Shown here one piece after another: positions 48,878 to 57,298 of a stretch of 64,000 nt of DNA. Where the stretch lies: NCBI RefSeq assembly GCF_016595415.1, contig NZ_JAENIO010000002.1, positions 124,001 to 188,000 of the forward strand, written 5' to 3'. The notes beneath the pieces were generated by a model, which was not told the origin of the DNA, did no database searches, and saw only the letters and a program-made list of their open reading frames with translations. This DNA is from Roseibacillus ishigakijimensis. GTDB taxonomy: Bacteria > Verrucomicrobiota > Verrucomicrobiia > Verrucomicrobiales > Akkermansiaceae. Within the stretch, counting starts at the first letter, position 1; every line of letters begins with the position of its first letter. Both the position numbers and the translations under genes were made by a program.

Positions 48878-49417
48878 ATGTCTGTGGCTGAAAATGACAC
48901 CTCTCTCCACTGGTTTGATGACGAAATCAAAACCGTGCAAACGCGTTTGAAAAGTTATCTCCAGAGCTCTCTGGGCAATCGCTCCGATGCCGAGGACGTT
49001 CTGCAGGAAACCAACCTTGTTCTCTGGCGCAAGCGGGAGGATTTCGAACGGGGCACTTCCTTCTGGGCCTGGGCCCAGCGGGTGGCCTTTTTCCAGCTCA
49101 TGGCTTTTCGCAAAAAGCGCAGTCGCAGCCGCTTGGTGCTCGATGACGAGGTCGTGCACCTGTTGGCGGTTGAGGCTCCCGAAGTTTTTGCCGGGCAAAG
49201 AGATCCGCGCGAAAAAAGTCTACAAGCCTGTCTAGCTAGTTTGCCCGAGCGGCAGCGTGAACTCATCACCCGTCATTATTTTCAACGGGAAAGCCTCAAG
49301 ACGCTGGCTTCCGCCCATTCCTCCAGCGTGGCCGCTATTGGGCAAACCCTCTATCGCGCCCGCCACAATCTCCAACTTTGTCTCCAGAAAAAGAACCCCA
49401 ACTCCTCTGAATCATGA
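48878..49417 (+). CDS. ECF-type RNA polymerase sigma factor
   Basis: 179 residues. Region 2 is at about 10-75 (LQSSLGNRSDAEDVLQETNLVLWRKREDF and FWAWAQRVAFFQLMAFRKKR), typical of the Rhodopirellula/Verrucomicrobium-type ECF group. Region 4 is at about 118-170 (LPERQRELITRHYFQRESLKTLA, then SVAAIGQTLYRARHNLQLCL, the helix-turn-helix). Regions 1.1 and 3 are absent, as in ECF factors. Its last four bases overlap ATG of the following gene (ATGA), so translation is coupled to the anti-sigma-like fusion, the expected regulator. The regulon is unknown; autoregulation of this operon is a fair guess. Confidence 0.93.
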   Translation: MSVAENDTSLHWFDDEIKTVQTRLKSYLQSSLGNRSDAEDVLQETNLVLWRKREDFERGTSFWAWAQRVAFFQLMAFRKKRSRSRLVLDDEVVHLLAVEAPEVFAGQRDPREKSLQACLASLPERQRELITRHYFQRESLKTLASAHSSSVAAIGQTLYRARHNLQLCLQKKNPNSSES

Positions 49418-52400
49418 CCGACCAAGATCGCCTGCTTATTTCCAGCTATCTCGCGGGGGCACTCGATTCGTCCCAAGAGAAAGCCCTCAATGATCTTTTG
49501 CGCCGCAGTCCCGAAGCGCGGGCTGAGCTCTTGCAGCAAGCTCGGGTGGACTCCCTCTTGCACGAATTGGGAGGGGAGAGGCCCGCACAGGTCGTTCCTT
49601 TCAAAGCGATTTCGCCGGAAGAGCCTTCCCGCCGGGCCCGTTGGCCAGTCTGGACGGCCACGGCGGCTGCCGCGTTAACCATCGCCGGGGTCGTTCTCTT
49701 CGCCGAGCGCCCTCAGTTGCTGGCCCCTGAAGTGGCTGTCGGACAAGAGAATCCACGTCCTCTGGAGCGGAAATCCTTGTCCCGGGAAGAAACCTATTCT
49801 CAGGCCATTGCCAAGCTGCAGGAAGCCGGCAGTCAGAAGCGGGCGGTGGCACAGAGTCCGGCCCTGGCTGCTGCTCCGGGAGAAAGAATCAGCTACAACC
49901 AGCACATCCGGCCCATTCTTTCCGAGAATTGCTTTCACTGTCACGGGCCGGACCCCGCTACCCGGGAGGCTGATATCGCGCTCCACGAGCCCGAGTTTGC
50001 TTTCGCCGAGATGGACGGAATCGCGCCCATCGTGCCGGGGGATGCCAAGGCCAGTGAAGTGGTGGCCCGCATCCTGGATCAGCACGATCCCATGCCACCC
50101 AAGGATTCCAATCGCTCGCTCACCTTTGAAGAGAAAGAGCTTTTGCAGCGTTGGATCGACGAGGGGGCGGAGTATGAGAAGCACTGGGCCTTCGTGCCTC
50201 CCGTCAAGCCCGAGCCCCCGCAGGTCGGCGATTCCGGAGCTTCTGTGCACAATCCCGTGGACCAATTTGTGCAAGCCAAGCTCGCAGAAAAAGGGCTGGA
50301 GCCCGCTCCTCCTGCCGAGCCCGAGGTATTGGCCCGGCGGGCCAGCCTCGCCCTCACCGGTCTGCAGCCGGACCTCGCTCTGCTGGACGCCTACCTCGCC
50401 GATCCCTCTGAGGCGGCCTACGAGAGGTTCGTGGACCACTTGTTGGCCTCCGATGCCTACGCCGAGCGCATGGCTCTCTTCTGGATGGATGCCGCGCGTT
50501 ACGCCGATACCGACGGCTATCAGAATGACCATGGCCGCACGAACTGGCCTTGGCGGGACTGGGTCATCCAGGCTTATCGCGAGAACATGCCCTTCGACCA
50601 GTTCACCATCGAGCAGCTGGCAGGGGACATGTTGCCTCAGGCAACCGCTTCTCAGCGCCTCGCCAGTGCCTTTAACCGCAATCACCGCCAGAATAACGAA
50701 GGCGGGGCCTTGGCGGAAGAATTCCTGGTGGAGAATGTCATCGATCGGGTGGAGACCACTTCCACCGTGTGGCTAGGCCTGACCACCGGGTGCGCCCGTT
50801 GCCATGACCACAAATACGACCCCATTTCGCAGCGGGAGTTTTTCCAACTCTACGCCTACTTCAACAACATCAACGAGCGCGGGATCGGGCGTGGCACGGA
50901 GGCCAAGCCCGTGGAAGAGTTCACTTCGCCCTTGTTTGAAATCCCCGCCGGACTCGCCGAGCGCTTGGAGCACGCACAGGCTCAGCTGGCGAAAGCCCGC
51001 CAGGAAACCGGAACCCGTTTCCGGAACTGGGTGGCGTCCCATCGCCCGACGAGCGAAGCGCCCGATTCTTGGGAACCGGTTTCCCTGCTTTCGGCCCGGG
51101 TGCCGGACAATCAGGGCGAATTGACGGCCTTGCCCGATGGCAGCTATCTCTTTGAAGGAAACAACATCACGCGCACTAGCTATCAGCTGGCCTTCGAGTG
51201 GCCGGCAGGCAAAACCCTCTCCGCCCTTCGCGTGGAAGCCCTGCCGCACGAGTCTCTCGTCCGCCTCTCCCTGGCCAACAACGGCAACTTCGTCCTCACC
51301 GAGGCGAAGGTGAGCTTCCGTCCGTCGGAAGAGGGGCAGGCCAAGTCCTTGCCCCTCGCCCGTGCGGCTGCCAGCTACGAGCAATCAAACTACCCCGCCA
51401 GCCAAGCCATTGATGGCAAGGCAAAAACGGGGTGGGCGGTGAATGGCAACCCCGGGGAGAGCGCCTCTCTCTTTCTGGCTTTGGCTGAGCCGCTGAAGGA
51501 TGCGGCCGGAGGCACGGTGGAAGTGACCCTGGAATTCTTCTCCTCCTTCACCGACCATAATATCGGGCGCTTGCGGCTGGCCACTTCCCAGCAAGCTGGA
51601 GCCCTGGGCCGAGAATTGATTTTGGCCAACCAGGAGGTGCGGGCAGCATTGGAAAAAGAAGAAGCCGCTTGGACCGGGGCCGAGCGCAAGCTGCTTCGCG
51701 AGCACTTCGCGACCATCGATTCCGTGCTGGGCAACGCTCAGGCCCGGGTGGCGGCCGTGGAAAAAGAGCTGGCTCGAGCAGGCTTTGCCAAGGTGCCGGT
51801 GATGGTGATGAGTGAGAAGAGCGGAGAGCCCGCTCCCGCCTACCTGCTGAACCGCGGCCAATACAACGAACCCGATACCTCCGAGGCCCTGCCCCGGCGC
51901 ATGCTGGAGGCCCTGCTGCCGGGAGAAGAACATCCCCAGGACCGCCTCGAACTCGCCCGCTGGCTGGTCAGCCGCGAGAATCCCATCACGGCCCGGGTGG
52001 TGGTCAATCGCATGTGGCAGCGCATGATGGGCATCGGCTTGGTGAAAACCTCCGAGGATTTCGGTTCCCAAGGAGAGCTGCCGGTCAATCAGGACCTTCT
52101 CGACTGGTTGGCCATGGAGTTCATCGACTCCGGTTGGGATGTGAAGGGGCTTTACCGCACCATCGTCACCAGCCATGCCTTCCGGCAATCCTCCCGCACC
52201 AATCCAGGGCTGCAGGAGGTCGATCCGGAGAACCGGTATCTGGCCCGCGGACCCCGCTACCGCATGGACGGGTTTGCCATTCGCGACCTTGCGCTCAATG
52301 CCTCCGGCTTGCTCTATCCCAAGGTAGGGGGAGCACCAGTGAAGCCCTACCAGCCGGCCGGTTTGTGGGAGAGCGTGGCTGCCAATGCCGGCACCCGCTA

Positions 52401-52884
52401 CGTCGAATCCAAGGGGAAGGATCTTTTCCGCAAAAGCATGTATTCCTACTGGAAGCGCGCAGTCAATCCGCCCCGGCAGAACATTTTCGACGCCTCGGGG
52501 CGCGAGGTGTGCAATGTGCGGCACAAAATCACCAATACGCCGCTGCAGGCCCTGGCGCTGATGAATGACGAGACCTTCGTGGAAGCGGCCCGTCATCTTG
52601 CCGCCCGGGGTTTGCGGGAGGGAGGAGCGACAGCCAAGGAGCGGCTGGCCCACATCTACCGACTCGCGACCGGGTATTCCGCCGATGAGGAGGAGTTGGC
52701 CATCTTCTTGCAAAACCGCCGTCACTTCGCGGAGCACTTTGCCAGTCATCCTGCGGAAGCCCGCGACTTTCTCTCCATTGGGGCCACTCCCCGGGACGAG
52801 GACCTAGATTTGATCGACCATGCCGCCGATACCGCGACCGCCCACCTCATCCTCAACTTGGATGAGACCATCACGCTGGAGTGA
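49414..52884 (+). CDS. Anti-sigma-like domain fused to a PSD1 cytochrome protein
   Basis: 1156 residues. The first 75 residues (MTDQDRLLISSYLAGALDSS, ALNDLLRRSPEARAELLQQARVDSLLHEL) resemble cytoplasmic anti-sigma/FecR-type N termini; no zinc-binding HxxxCxxC is visible. One membrane helix follows at 78-97. The outer part has a coiled linker, a cytochrome-like domain with CFHCH (Cys173, Cys176, His177), DUF1549 with CARCHDHKYDP (Cys460, Cys463, His464), a discoidin-like insertion (about 560-750, ASYEQSNYPASQAIDGKAKT), and DUF1553. The gene is translationally coupled to the ECF sigma factor. It would sense outside with the haem/DUF part and hold or release the sigma factor inside. It is paralogous to the protein at 4270, which lacks the N-terminal part. 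Confidence 0.9.
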   Translation: MTDQDRLLISSYLAGALDSSQEKALNDLLRRSPEARAELLQQARVDSLLHELGGERPAQVVPFKAISPEEPSRRARWPVWTATAAAALTIAGVVLFAERPQLLAPEVAVGQENPRPLERKSLSREETYSQAIAKLQEAGSQKRAVAQSPALAAAPGERISYNQHIRPILSENCFHCHGPDPATREADIALHEPEFAFAEMDGIAPIVPGDAKASEVVARILDQHDPMPPKDSNRSLTFEEKELLQRWIDEGAEYEKHWAFVPPVKPEPPQVGDSGASVHNPVDQFVQAKLAEKGLEPAPPAEPEVLARRASLALTGLQPDLALLDAYLADPSEAAYERFVDHLLASDAYAERMALFWMDAARYADTDGYQNDHGRTNWPWRDWVIQAYRENMPFDQFTIEQLAGDMLPQATASQRLASAFNRNHRQNNEGGALAEEFLVENVIDRVETTSTVWLGLTTGCARCHDHKYDPISQREFFQLYAYFNNINERGIGRGTEAKPVEEFTSPLFEIPAGLAERLEHAQAQLAKARQETGTRFRNWVASHRPTSEAPDSWEPVSLLSARVPDNQGELTALPDGSYLFEGNNITRTSYQLAFEWPAGKTLSALRVEALPHESLVRLSLANNGNFVLTEAKVSFRPSEEGQAKSLPLARAAASYEQSNYPASQAIDGKAKTGWAVNGNPGESASLFLALAEPLKDAAGGTVEVTLEFFSSFTDHNIGRLRLATSQQAGALGRELILANQEVRAALEKEEAAWTGAERKLLREHFATIDSVLGNAQARVAAVEKELARAGFAKVPVMVMSEKSGEPAPAYLLNRGQYNEPDTSEALPRRMLEALLPGEEHPQDRLELARWLVSRENPITARVVVNRMWQRMMGIGLVKTSEDFGSQGELPVNQDLLDWLAMEFIDSGWDVKGLYRTIVTSHAFRQSSRTNPGLQEVDPENRYLARGPRYRMDGFAIRDLALNASGLLYPKVGGAPVKPYQPAGLWESVAANAGTRYVESKGKDLFRKSMYSYWKRAVNPPRQNIFDASGREVCNVRHKITNTPLQALALMNDETFVEAARHLAARGLREGGATAKERLAHIYRLATGYSADEEELAIFLQNRRHFAEHFASHPAEARDFLSIGATPRDEDLDLIDHAADTATAHLILNLDETITLE

Positions 52885-54585
52885 TTAGCGGGAGCGCTCG
52901 AACTCCCGCGCAGCCTCTTCCGCAGCCTCCTCGGCCGCGCGCTCTTCGCGCTGGATGCGGGCGACCCGCGCCAGGGTGGTGAGGAGGGCGGTGGCGTTCT
53001 CAGCCAGTTTGGCGGCCTCCGGCACATCGGCGGGCTCGTCGTAGCCCAGCCAGAGCGCGACCGCGAGGTCGGGGCTGCTGTGCAGCGCCCACAGGTCGTT
53101 GCCCGGATGGTTGAGTGCGCTCCAGGTGGGTTTGCCCAGGATTTCGAAAGGGCTCTGCGCGGCAAAGGAATCGAGGGCCGGTTTGCCTTGCGGCTGCTGT
53201 TGGAACAAGAGCTCGCCCTCGGAGTCGGTGAGGGATTCCACCAGATAGGTGCGTGGCTCGCGACCCTCATTGGCCAGAGTCGCCAACGCGGTGGCCACCT
53301 CTAGAGTGGTGGTTTGGAGATTGCCCCGGGCGAGCTCGTCACCCGTGGTGAAGGGCCCCCCGAAGCCGATGCGGCGGGCGAGCCGCTCCAAATCCCCGGG
53401 AGCCAGCTGCCGCGCGGTCTGGATGGGCTGATTGGGGATGGGCAAGTGCCCCCTTTCGGCCGAAAAGGCATAGATGAAGGGCTGGAAGGCAGGCCCGAGC
53501 TGGCGGCGGGTATCGAAGGCGCGGTTGAATTGGGAGCGCTCGGCGTCCCGAGCGGTGATGACCGCCCGCATGGCCCCGGTGGCAGGGTCCAGAGCGACGA
53601 GGGCGGCTTCCAGCTGGGCAAAGGGGGCCAGGATTTCGTCGATGCCCTGGCGGGCCAGGCGCTGCATTTCGCGGTCGATGGAAGAGGTCGCGGTGAGCCC
53701 TCCACTGGCAAAATCATTTTGATCCAGAAGCTCATTGAGATGGCGGCGCACGCAGCGAATGGCATCCACCTGCTCCTCACGAGCGGGGAGGAGGTGAAGC
53801 GGAGCCTGCAAGAATTCGTCGCGTTGCTCCGGGGTGAGGTGGCCGTCAATGGCCATATTGCGGAGCACGTCATTGCGCTCGCGGAGGGCGGCCTCTTCGT
53901 CGTTGCGGGGAGAAAAAGCGTGCGGGGCCCGGATGATGCCGACCAAGAGAGCGGCTTCCGGCACCGAGAGATCCGCCGTCGGGCGTCCGAAATAGCTCTG
54001 GGCCGCTTGCTCGATACCGAAGGCACCCGCGCCGAAATAAATGCGATTGAGATAGGCGGTGAGAATTTCCTTTTTGTCGAAATTGGCCTCCAAGCGATAA
54101 GCGAGGGCCATTTCCAGCAGCTTGCGATGGAAAGACATCTCCCTCATTTCGAAAGTATTGCGAGCCAGCTGCATGGTGAGGGTGGAGGCTCCCTGAGTCA
54201 TGCTGCGATCGCGCAAATTGCGGAGGGTGGCCCGGGCCACGCCCCGAAAGTGGACGCCCCCGTGTTCGAAAAAGTCCTTGTCTTCCCGGGTGGTGAGGGC
54301 GTTGATCAGGTGACTTGGCAGGTCCTCGTAGGTGATGAGGCGGCGGCGCGAGCCGTGGATGGCCGCCAGCTCCTGGCCTTCCCGGTCGAGCAGAAGAGTG
54401 CGCTCAGGCATTTTTTCCACCTTGGTGAGGTCGAATTGCGCCGCTTGCAACCAGTAGAGCAGGGCCACCACTACCGCGAGGAGACAGCCGATCCCCACCA
54501 CCCGCAAGAAGATGCGTCCCATTGCAAAAACCCAGGAAGGGAGCTGCTCCCAGAGCCCGGGTTCGTCGTTTTCCAGCCAAGTCAT
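52885..54585 (-). CDS. Class A penicillin-binding protein with a degenerate transpeptidase
   Basis: 566 residues. A membrane helix (about 25-47) leads to a full GT51 glycosyltransferase domain (about 60-240) with TTREDKDFFEHGGVHFRGV (catalytic Glu101), GASTLTMQLARN, KLLEMALAYRLE, KEILTAYLNRIYFG and AALLVGIIRAP. The transpeptidase domain is recognisable (ALVALDPATGAMRAVI, LWLGYDEP) but all three motifs are altered: SxxK reads GPAFQP (Pro365 for Ser, Gln368 for Lys), no SxN is evident, and KTG reads KPT (485-487). So it should polymerise glycan strands without cross-linking them. The C terminus is a short charged helix (REERAAEEAAEEAAREFERSR). Convergent with the sigma operon, adjacent stops. 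Confidence 0.9.
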   Translation of the reverse strand: MTWLENDEPGLWEQLPSWVFAMGRIFLRVVGIGCLLAVVVALLYWLQAAQFDLTKVEKMPERTLLLDREGQELAAIHGSRRRLITYEDLPSHLINALTTREDKDFFEHGGVHFRGVARATLRNLRDRSMTQGASTLTMQLARNTFEMREMSFHRKLLEMALAYRLEANFDKKEILTAYLNRIYFGAGAFGIEQAAQSYFGRPTADLSVPEAALLVGIIRAPHAFSPRNDEEAALRERNDVLRNMAIDGHLTPEQRDEFLQAPLHLLPAREEQVDAIRCVRRHLNELLDQNDFASGGLTATSSIDREMQRLARQGIDEILAPFAQLEAALVALDPATGAMRAVITARDAERSQFNRAFDTRRQLGPAFQPFIYAFSAERGHLPIPNQPIQTARQLAPGDLERLARRIGFGGPFTTGDELARGNLQTTTLEVATALATLANEGREPRTYLVESLTDSEGELLFQQQPQGKPALDSFAAQSPFEILGKPTWSALNHPGNDLWALHSSPDLAVALWLGYDEPADVPEAAKLAENATALLTTLARVARIQREERAAEEAAEEAAREFERSR

Positions 54586-54703: not shown

Positions 54704-57298
54704 ATGTTTGAAGTGAAACGATTTCTTTTTTCCGTTTTTTCCGGGATCACGGCAAGTTGGTCTCTCGGTCAGGGGGCCATGGAGTCTCCCCCGGCCCAAG
54801 GGTTGGGGGCCGAGGACTTTGCCCGGCGGGAAGAAGCGGTGGAAAATCTGTGGGCCCGGGGGGAGGAGGCGCTGCCGGAATTGGAGGCCATGCGCGATTC
54901 TCCCGATCCCGAAGTTGCTTGGCGAGCCCGCCGCATACTGCGTTGGATTGACTTGGAACTGACTCCGGAAACGCCTCCGGCAGTGGTGGCGGCGGTGGAG
55001 GCCTATCGCCGGGCTGACAATGGGGTGGAGCGCAATCGCCTCTACGAATTCCTCCTGGCCCAGGAGGCTTATCTCACCCTTTTCCGTCTCCCGCGCCATA
55101 TTCCGGATCCGGAAGTGGCCAGCCATTTGAGCGAGCAAGTGGACGAATTGGCTGAAACAGTTGCCAAAGAGAAGATTCGGCAAGGAGAGGATGAAGAAGC
55201 CTTTGCCATCCTCACCGACACCCGCAAGTCCGAGCTGGGCACTCTGCGCTGGCTGACCCTGGCGGAGGCGTTGGGGAAAAGCGAAGCTCTCTGGGATGAG
55301 CTGAGTGAGGGCGACCGCTTGAAGCTGGCGCGCTGGAGGGGTGATAAGGAGCTGATTGAGAAGCTGGCCCCCGACGACCATGAAGTCCGCCTCTCTTTGA
55401 ACTTGGTCAATGGGGAGCTCGGAGACTTTTTGGACAAGCAGATGCGGCGCGGCGATCGGCGGGGAGCATTGGCCAAACTCATCTCTGCCCGCTGGGGAGG
55501 CAAGGTCTCGGCGGAAGAAGCTCAGCGGCTGCGGGAAGAGCTGGCTGCTGATGTCGAAGAACAAGAATTGAATTGGAAAGAAGCGGTCGGGATTCTGAGT
55601 CTCACCGGAGCTTACGAGGAACTCCGTCCCCATTTGGAAACACTCTTTCCCAGGGAGCTGGCATTGGAACTGGAGTCCTATGAGCGAGTGGAGGAAGCCT
55701 TTGCCCTGCTGGGATTGGAGGTTGGCGAGCCCCTCCCCGAGGACTGGATCACCGGGCAGCTCGGACGGGTCGAGGGAGAATTCGATATTCTCAATGACGG
55801 ATGCGCCAATCTCCTCGATCTCGCCTTTATCCTGAGCGAGAGGGGACGAGAGGAGGATGCGGAGCGCATTTTCGATGCCTTGGGGAGCCAGATGAAAGAG
55901 TTCTCCGAAGAGGATTTTGGCGAGTATCTCTTTTACCTCACCGGGCGCAGTCGGTTGCGGGCCAGTCAGGGGGCGATTGAGTATGCCCTGCGGCAAGCCC
56001 GGGCCGAGGAAGAGGAGCTCTTCACTCCCACCGAGTTTCTCAATGAAGCTTTTTACGAAGATGAGAGCGTGCTGCGGCTGAATCGTTTTCTGCAAGGGGT
56101 GGAGCCTGACAAGTCGGATTGGGAGATTGTTGAACTCGTCTTTGCCCTCCGGGGGCGGCCCGTTTCCCTTCCTTGGGAAGAGGTGGCGGAGGCGCTGCGC
56201 CAGTTGGAAGAGAGTGCAGCCGAGCGCGAATCGGTTGAACAATGGAATCTCTTATCCGAATGCGCTTTTGCTTGCGGGGAACTCGCCGTTGCCGAGCGAG
56301 CCGCCCGGGCACTGGCTTCGCTTGACAAAAAGGACGAGGGCTATGCCTTGGAGCTGGCTTATTTCCAGTTTTTGAATGGCGACTACGACGAGTCCGCCGA
56401 CCTCTTTCTCCCCACTCTCCGGGAGGACATGCTCGCCACCCGCCTGCATGCGGTGGTGGCTCTGGAGTTGTGCGGGCGCTCGGCGGAAGCGGCCGAGCAG
56501 TGGAGTTTCCTTGAGAAAATTGCCTTGGGAGATGGTTCTTGGTTGGTGGAAGTGGCCACCATTTTCGGTCGCTGCGGCGAGTATGAGCGCCAGCGGGAGC
56601 TTCTCGAGCGAGCCCTTCTGATGTTGCCTGCTGGTGAGGGGCGCTGGTTTTCGACCTTGATTCAGCTCGGCGAAGCGGCCCGTCTGGCGGGGCACTGGCA
56701 GCAGGCCGCAGTCTGCGGGGAAGCCTTTGTGCTGCTCATGAGTTATGATGACGAAAGCCGCTACAGTGCCAATCTCCATTTGCGCGCGGAGATCGACTTT
56801 GCCCATGCCATGGCCGCCCTGACGACGGGTGATCGCGAGCGGGGACGGGCCTTGCTAAGCGAGCTGCGCGGTTACGGGGGCTTCTACGGGCTGGTGGCCA
56901 ACGAGATTTTTCTGAAGCTTCGGCAAGGTGGATTTCACGAGGAAGCGGAAGAATTCTGGCGGGGGCTGGCTCCGACCTATGAAGAATCGCTGCGCTTTTT
57001 TCCCGAAGCGGCCAATGCCCACAACACCGCTGCCTGGGTGGCCTCGCGCGCGGCCTGCGACTTGGTAAAAGCCAATGAGTGGATCGAAATTGCTCTCTCC
57101 ATCAGTCCCCGATCGTCGGCTTATCTGGACACGCGGGCGGAGGTCTATTTCGCCATGGGGGAGCGGGAGAAAGCGATCCAGTGGTCGGAGAAGGCCTGCC
57201 TCCGCAGTGATGATTTGATGGAACTGGAGCAACTGCGGGTGCAGCATCGCCACTTTCTTGCCGACCCCTTTCCTCTCCCTGAACCAGCCTCCGAGTAG
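54704..57298 (+). CDS. Large exported TPR-like repeat protein
   Basis: Unrecognised beyond its repeats. 864 residues from ATG 54704; GTG 54713 is a fair alternative, with AAGGA 8 bases before it. A signal peptide (KRFLFSVFSGITASWSLGQG) leads to a nearly all-helical, Glu/Arg-rich chain of TPR-like pairs, clearest in the second half (YALELAYFQFLNGDYDESADLFLP, VVALELCGRSAEAAEQWSFLEK, EWIEIALSISPRSSAYLDTRAEVYFAMGEREKAIQWSEKA). The first half has HEAT-like features (PDPEVAWRARRILR, typical of repeat contacts). Such proteins are scaffolds; the partner is unknown. It is divergent from the PBP gene and convergent with xerC. Confidence 0.8.
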   Translation: MFEVKRFLFSVFSGITASWSLGQGAMESPPAQGLGAEDFARREEAVENLWARGEEALPELEAMRDSPDPEVAWRARRILRWIDLELTPETPPAVVAAVEAYRRADNGVERNRLYEFLLAQEAYLTLFRLPRHIPDPEVASHLSEQVDELAETVAKEKIRQGEDEEAFAILTDTRKSELGTLRWLTLAEALGKSEALWDELSEGDRLKLARWRGDKELIEKLAPDDHEVRLSLNLVNGELGDFLDKQMRRGDRRGALAKLISARWGGKVSAEEAQRLREELAADVEEQELNWKEAVGILSLTGAYEELRPHLETLFPRELALELESYERVEEAFALLGLEVGEPLPEDWITGQLGRVEGEFDILNDGCANLLDLAFILSERGREEDAERIFDALGSQMKEFSEEDFGEYLFYLTGRSRLRASQGAIEYALRQARAEEEELFTPTEFLNEAFYEDESVLRLNRFLQGVEPDKSDWEIVELVFALRGRPVSLPWEEVAEALRQLEESAAERESVEQWNLLSECAFACGELAVAERAARALASLDKKDEGYALELAYFQFLNGDYDESADLFLPTLREDMLATRLHAVVALELCGRSAEAAEQWSFLEKIALGDGSWLVEVATIFGRCGEYERQRELLERALLMLPAGEGRWFSTLIQLGEAARLAGHWQQAAVCGEAFVLLMSYDDESRYSANLHLRAEIDFAHAMAALTTGDRERGRALLSELRGYGGFYGLVANEIFLKLRQGGFHEEAEEFWRGLAPTYEESLRFFPEAANAHNTAAWVASRAACDLVKANEWIEIALSISPRSSAYLDTRAEVYFAMGEREKAIQWSEKACLRSDDLMELEQLRVQHRHFLADPFPLPEPASE

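Follow-up and report, generated by a model that had tools for sequence, protein, structure and literature searches.

A class A penicillin-binding protein paralogue of the Akkermansia family with an intact glycosyltransferase domain and a probably non-catalytic, selectively retained transpeptidase-fold domain

The window, the whole 64,000-nucleotide stretch of Roseibacillus ishigakijimensis DNA analysed here, carries the gene of a class A penicillin-binding protein (PBP) paralogue, hereafter psPBP, in which the GT51 glycosyltransferase domain is intact and the transpeptidase (TP) domain is devoid of its motifs. In textbooks, class A PBPs appear as bifunctional enzymes that beta-lactams target. 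We consider it probable, at roughly 0.7, that psPBP is an anciently duplicated class A PBP that now serves as a dedicated glycan polymerase and keeps, under selection, a TP-fold domain without catalytic activity. The sequence-only reading of this DNA had proposed a protein that polymerises but does not cross-link peptidoglycan and retains a pseudoenzyme domain, and this is the best supported account, given that the GT51 residues are preserved in 77 of 77 orthologues, the TP motifs in 0 of 77, and that the pseudo-TP domain evolves under purifying selection. The gene and the parts of its product lie in the window as follows.

52885..54585 (-), psPBP gene, an ORF of 566 aa: class A PBP paralogue with intact GT51 and motif-less TP domain
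54442..54537 (-), N-terminal membrane helix, residues 17-48 (AF2 model and hydrophobic stretch in the sequence)
53854..54378 (-), GT51 peptidoglycan glycosyltransferase domain, residues 70-244 (PF00912, E 2.5e-59)
54283..54285 (-), codon of Glu101, the catalytic Glu of GT51 (invariant in 77/77)
53011..53733 (-), pseudo-transpeptidase domain, residues 285-525 (AF2 superposition, motif scan, dN/dS ~0.11)
53482..53493 (-), lost SxxK site, Pro365-Ala-Phe-Gln368 (outgroup alignment; K in 0/77 orthologues)
53416..53433 (-), approximate deletion junction, residues 385-390, where ~39 residues including SxN are gone (paralogue alignment)
53116..53133 (-), lost KTG site, residues 485-490, KPTWSA (K of KTG gapped in 77/77; motif scan)

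A pattern scan of the whole chain for S..K, S.N and [KRH][TS]G found none of them in the 566 residues of psPBP. When the protein was aligned with 24 distant class A PBPs of other phyla, the set that served both as outgroup and for the fold alignment, at least 90% of rows had Ser, the nucleophile, and Lys, the general base, in the columns occupied by P365 and Q368, so that the earlier assignment of the replaced SxxK motif is borne out. Across the 77 psPBP copies the Lys position never holds Lys, the Ser position holds P, S, D, E, A, T or another residue, and the commonest pair at the site is SxxE (16 of 77 copies). The absence of SxN, also noted from the sequence, reflects the deletion of a block rather than its mutation, the SxN columns being gapped in 77 of 77 psPBPs in a joint alignment with active PBPs. 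This block corresponds to residues 474-512 (~39, SxN-bearing) of the active paralogue L002 and is absent in more than 90% of psPBPs; a short stretch before the KTG Lys is gone as well according to the alignment, and the stretch from the first motif to the third is short by 60-65 residues altogether. Owing to the deletion of the whole SxN block, the SxxK-to-KTG distance comes to about 120 residues in psPBP, versus 184-189 in the family's own active class A PBPs. The KTG Lys is likewise gapped in 77 of 77 copies of the joint alignment, and the site is variable, with KRT, QET or ATG in relatives where P0001, the label of the window's own psPBP protein, has KPT (485-487). The loss of KTG thus stands, as no KTG-like motif occurs in the chain, but 'KPT' is one reading of a variable site from which the Lys has been deleted. 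The pattern scan likewise placed intact SxxK, SxN and KTG nowhere else in psPBP.

The glycosyltransferase part presents the opposite picture. The claim of a complete GT51 domain with Glu101 held, with a PF00912 match at E 2.5e-59 and the Glu in place, and E101, D102, H108, S134, Q139, K155, E158, K171, Y178 and N180 are invariant in all 77 psPBPs. Over 102 psPBP pairs of 70-98% identity, which are not independent, the median pairwise dN/dS (Nei-Gojobori) was 0.10 for GT51 and 0.11 for the pseudo-TP domain. By this codon-based measure both domains are shown to be under purifying selection, and a value of about 0.11 argues that the pseudo-TP domain is not a passive remnant. In addition, a set of residues is conserved in psPBPs and not in active PBPs, namely D362, L363, T390, R392, R405, G410, F412, D417, L418 and R420, which by sequence position fall on the former SxxK site and about the junction left by the deletion; P0001 departs from them with Q362 and E417. 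These residues may make up a new binding site, or may do no more than close the fold again.

The overall TP fold is likely retained, as judged from modelling. An AF2 model of psPBP reached a mean pLDDT of 82.5, mostly 80-97 in the TP region, and superposed on TP domains of solved class A PBPs, among them M. tuberculosis PonA1 (5crf) with Z 29.0 and 2.6 A over 279 residues. The input alignment consisted of P0001 and 24 PBPs, mostly active class A, so the model was guided by active relatives, and residues 265-535 folded from the single sequence gave pLDDT 43 and no usable model; for these two reasons fold retention is put no higher than likely. The structure prediction recommended earlier came out divided, with a TP fold when a PBP alignment was supplied and none for the domain alone without one. 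The statement that the rest of the fold is kept is only partly right, in that it applies to the overall fold in the AF2 model, but not to the deleted SxN block and the spacing of 120 instead of 184-189 residues.

The pseudo-TP protein is a family trait. With a profile of the pseudo-TP domain alone, 113 of the 145 Akkermansia-family genomes each showed one strong match (E at most 1e-40); in genus g3 (Akkermansia-type) psPBP is more divergent and ~600-635 aa long, and the family genomes without a match are mainly small ones (genera g4, g5, g6 and g15) together with some g12 drafts. Outside the family, the 142 genomes searched in the order include a single carrier, G186, a fragmented draft, 77% complete, of another family, and since its copy (L168) nests inside the Akkermansia-family psPBP clade, contamination or horizontal transfer is suggested. 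In a scan of 288 genomes of the phylum, the other strong matches among those listed were split around the SxN block, as expected of ordinary class A PBPs, and are taken as such. In a maximum-likelihood tree of GT51 domains, psPBPs form one side of a branch with support 100/99, and psPBPs together with the family's active class A PBPs form one side of a 99/94 branch. A first tree had the very long-branch outgroup OUT_L053 beside the psPBPs, which broke the clade, and the final tree was built without long branches. Its topology is explained by a single duplication, and at the level of GT51 sequence it shows that the psPBP state has a single origin, a duplication of the active class A PBP at the family's base.

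The genome of the window encodes three GT51 proteins, psPBP, L002 (781 aa) and L008 (888 aa), of which L002 has intact TP motifs (SLFK / SRN / KTGTT); in this genome and in one g3 genome, only one of three class A PBPs possesses all TP motifs. L008 (contig C103, 286-2949), with TxxL in place of SxxK, belongs to a second group of TP-defective paralogues, here class 3 (L008, L129-L144; ~810-1200 aa), whose clade is separate from psPBP (98/84). In all 17 class 3 copies Thr stands in place of the SxxK Ser and the Lys is gone, SxN is mostly SxI or SxN-like without the Asn, and the K-x-G motif is retained. Class 3 is not confined to the Akkermansia family, being present in further families of the order and of the class, and such a TP-defective PBP may be a wider Verrucomicrobiota feature. 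The same genome further encodes three class B PBPs, two SEDS proteins and 10-11 YkuD enzymes. A link between psPBP and an expansion of L,D-transpeptidases was considered and rejected: the counts range from 3 to 21 across all families of the order, are high throughout and equally so in relatives without psPBP, so psPBP carriers are not singled out, and L,D-transpeptidases are possible, not specific, partners of psPBP.

The gene neighborhood offers further hints to partners. In 21 of the 39 loci with enough upstream sequence, an active class A PBP lies directly upstream of psPBP on the same strand, with a gap of -47 to 157 bp. It is not adjacent in the window's own genus nor in g3, and an operon-type partnership is therefore not universal. 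In g3, psPBP directly follows a secreted TPR protein of ~810-850 aa with a short gap or overlap (L146 705-3134; also L104, L145 and L147-L151), which is a candidate regulator or partner. In the window, positions 54704-57298 (+) encode an 864-aa secreted, weakly TPR-like protein divergent from psPBP, a pairing that recurs in two of three further genomes of this genus. On the other side, at 49414-52884 (+), a PSCyt1-PSCyt2-PSD1 (DUF1549/DUF1553) protein is convergent with psPBP, the stop codons abutting with no spacer. Some g13 genomes have a DUF1287 protein just upstream of psPBP instead of the active PBP (L077 2393-3994, L069 5845-6591).

In the explanation we prefer, the membrane-anchored GT51 domain of psPBP would polymerise lipid II, and the pseudo-TP domain, predicted to be refractory to beta-lactam acylation, would act structurally by positioning the GT domain or by docking onto a partner. 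Across much of the family this partner could be the active class A PBP encoded alongside, and in g3 perhaps the TPR protein. Cross-links between the glycan strands would be made in trans, whether by the active class A PBP, by class B PBPs or by L,D-transpeptidases; candidate partners in the window's own genome are L002, the three class B PBPs, the two SEDS proteins and the 10-11 YkuD enzymes. A precedent for such a division of labor exists in E. coli, where PBP1b S510A polymerised lipid II without TP activity and where, with an L,D-transpeptidase as the sole cross-linking enzyme, PBP1b can sustain chain elongation by its glycosyltransferase activity alone (PMC5089857).

Other explanations differ in what they make of the altered domain. 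Loss of every catalytic motif and deletion of a block would be compatible with recent gene decay, in which the TP domain is the eroding, functionless remnant of a bifunctional PBP, but the identical state in 77 of 77 copies across many genera with a single origin, a domain dN/dS of about 0.1 and the lack of stop codons in nearly all copies make this highly improbable; the 77 copies, their single origin and the dN/dS likewise ruled out sequencing error as the source of psPBP. The tandem with an active PBP in many genomes could also indicate that the whole protein is a pseudoenzyme, GT51 being inactive too, which only scaffolds the active PBP. This is unlikely, considering that none of the GT51 residues checked, the two catalytic Glu among them, varies across the 77 psPBPs and that the GT51 dN/dS is low.

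A more serious alternative overlaps with the polymerase reading and goes one step beyond it. Here the pseudo-TP domain would have gained a new ligand-binding or regulatory role, in which it gates GT51 activity, in psPBP itself or in a neighboring active PBP, according to whether it senses stem peptide, a partner or a lipoprotein activator. It is consistent with psPBP-only conserved residues surrounding the former active-site sequence blocks, with strong purifying selection on the domain and with the conserved gene pairs, formed with the active PBP in much of the family or with the ~810-aa TPR protein in g3. On the other hand, these residues may only stabilize the fold after the deletion, and the conserved D362 is Q in the window's own protein, and we hold a sensing or gating role to be possible but do not favor it. 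Extended to the whole family, and just as tentatively, the pseudo-TP domain might be a repurposed sensor or activator: a partner or nascent glycan would bind in its remodelled cleft, and the domain would control the paired active class A PBP, the wall then growing via a pair of a polymerase-only and a bifunctional enzyme.

From these sequences, it appears that the Akkermansia family maintains a class A PBP which beta-lactams should be unable to acylate. If this is true, polymerisation has been separated from cross-linking by gene duplication and not by domain loss, and psPBP represents a natural system for asking what a TP domain gives to a GT51 polymerase besides catalysis. No report of natural TP-dead class A PBPs or of Verrucomicrobiota PBP studies was found in the literature searched, which included few subscription journals and is weak evidence in this respect.

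Compared with known systems, psPBP shares with bifunctional class A PBPs of the PBP1a/PBP1b type (PF00912 and PF00905) the order of anchor, GT51, linker and TP-fold domain, the GT51 Glu (EDxxFxxHxG) and, in the model, the TP fold; it differs in the absence of SxxK, SxN and KTG(T/S), in the deletion of the SxN block and in a PF00905 match below the Pfam cut-off that covers only residues 419-471. All class A PBP family models that match it over the full length score well below their curated cut-offs, the best being TIGR02074 (PBP_1a_fam) with 325 against a cut-off of 509. The monofunctional glycosyltransferases MtgA and SgtB (TIGR02070) resemble it in predicted activity, i.e., a GT51 polymerase without cross-linking, yet psPBP scores 123.4 against their cut-off of 182.65 bits, carries a C-terminal TP-fold domain of ~240 residues and arose when a class A PBP was duplicated within the family. 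Class 3 (L008) is similar in combining an intact GT51 Glu with a lost SxxK, but it constitutes a separate clade, keeps the K-x-G strand motif and the full domain length and is found beyond the family. Like psPBP, the E. coli PBP1b S510A laboratory mutant joins GT51 to a folded, catalytically dead TP domain, and it polymerises glycan (PMC5089857), whereas psPBP is natural and ancient, has lost all motifs in addition to the deletion and is maintained by selection.
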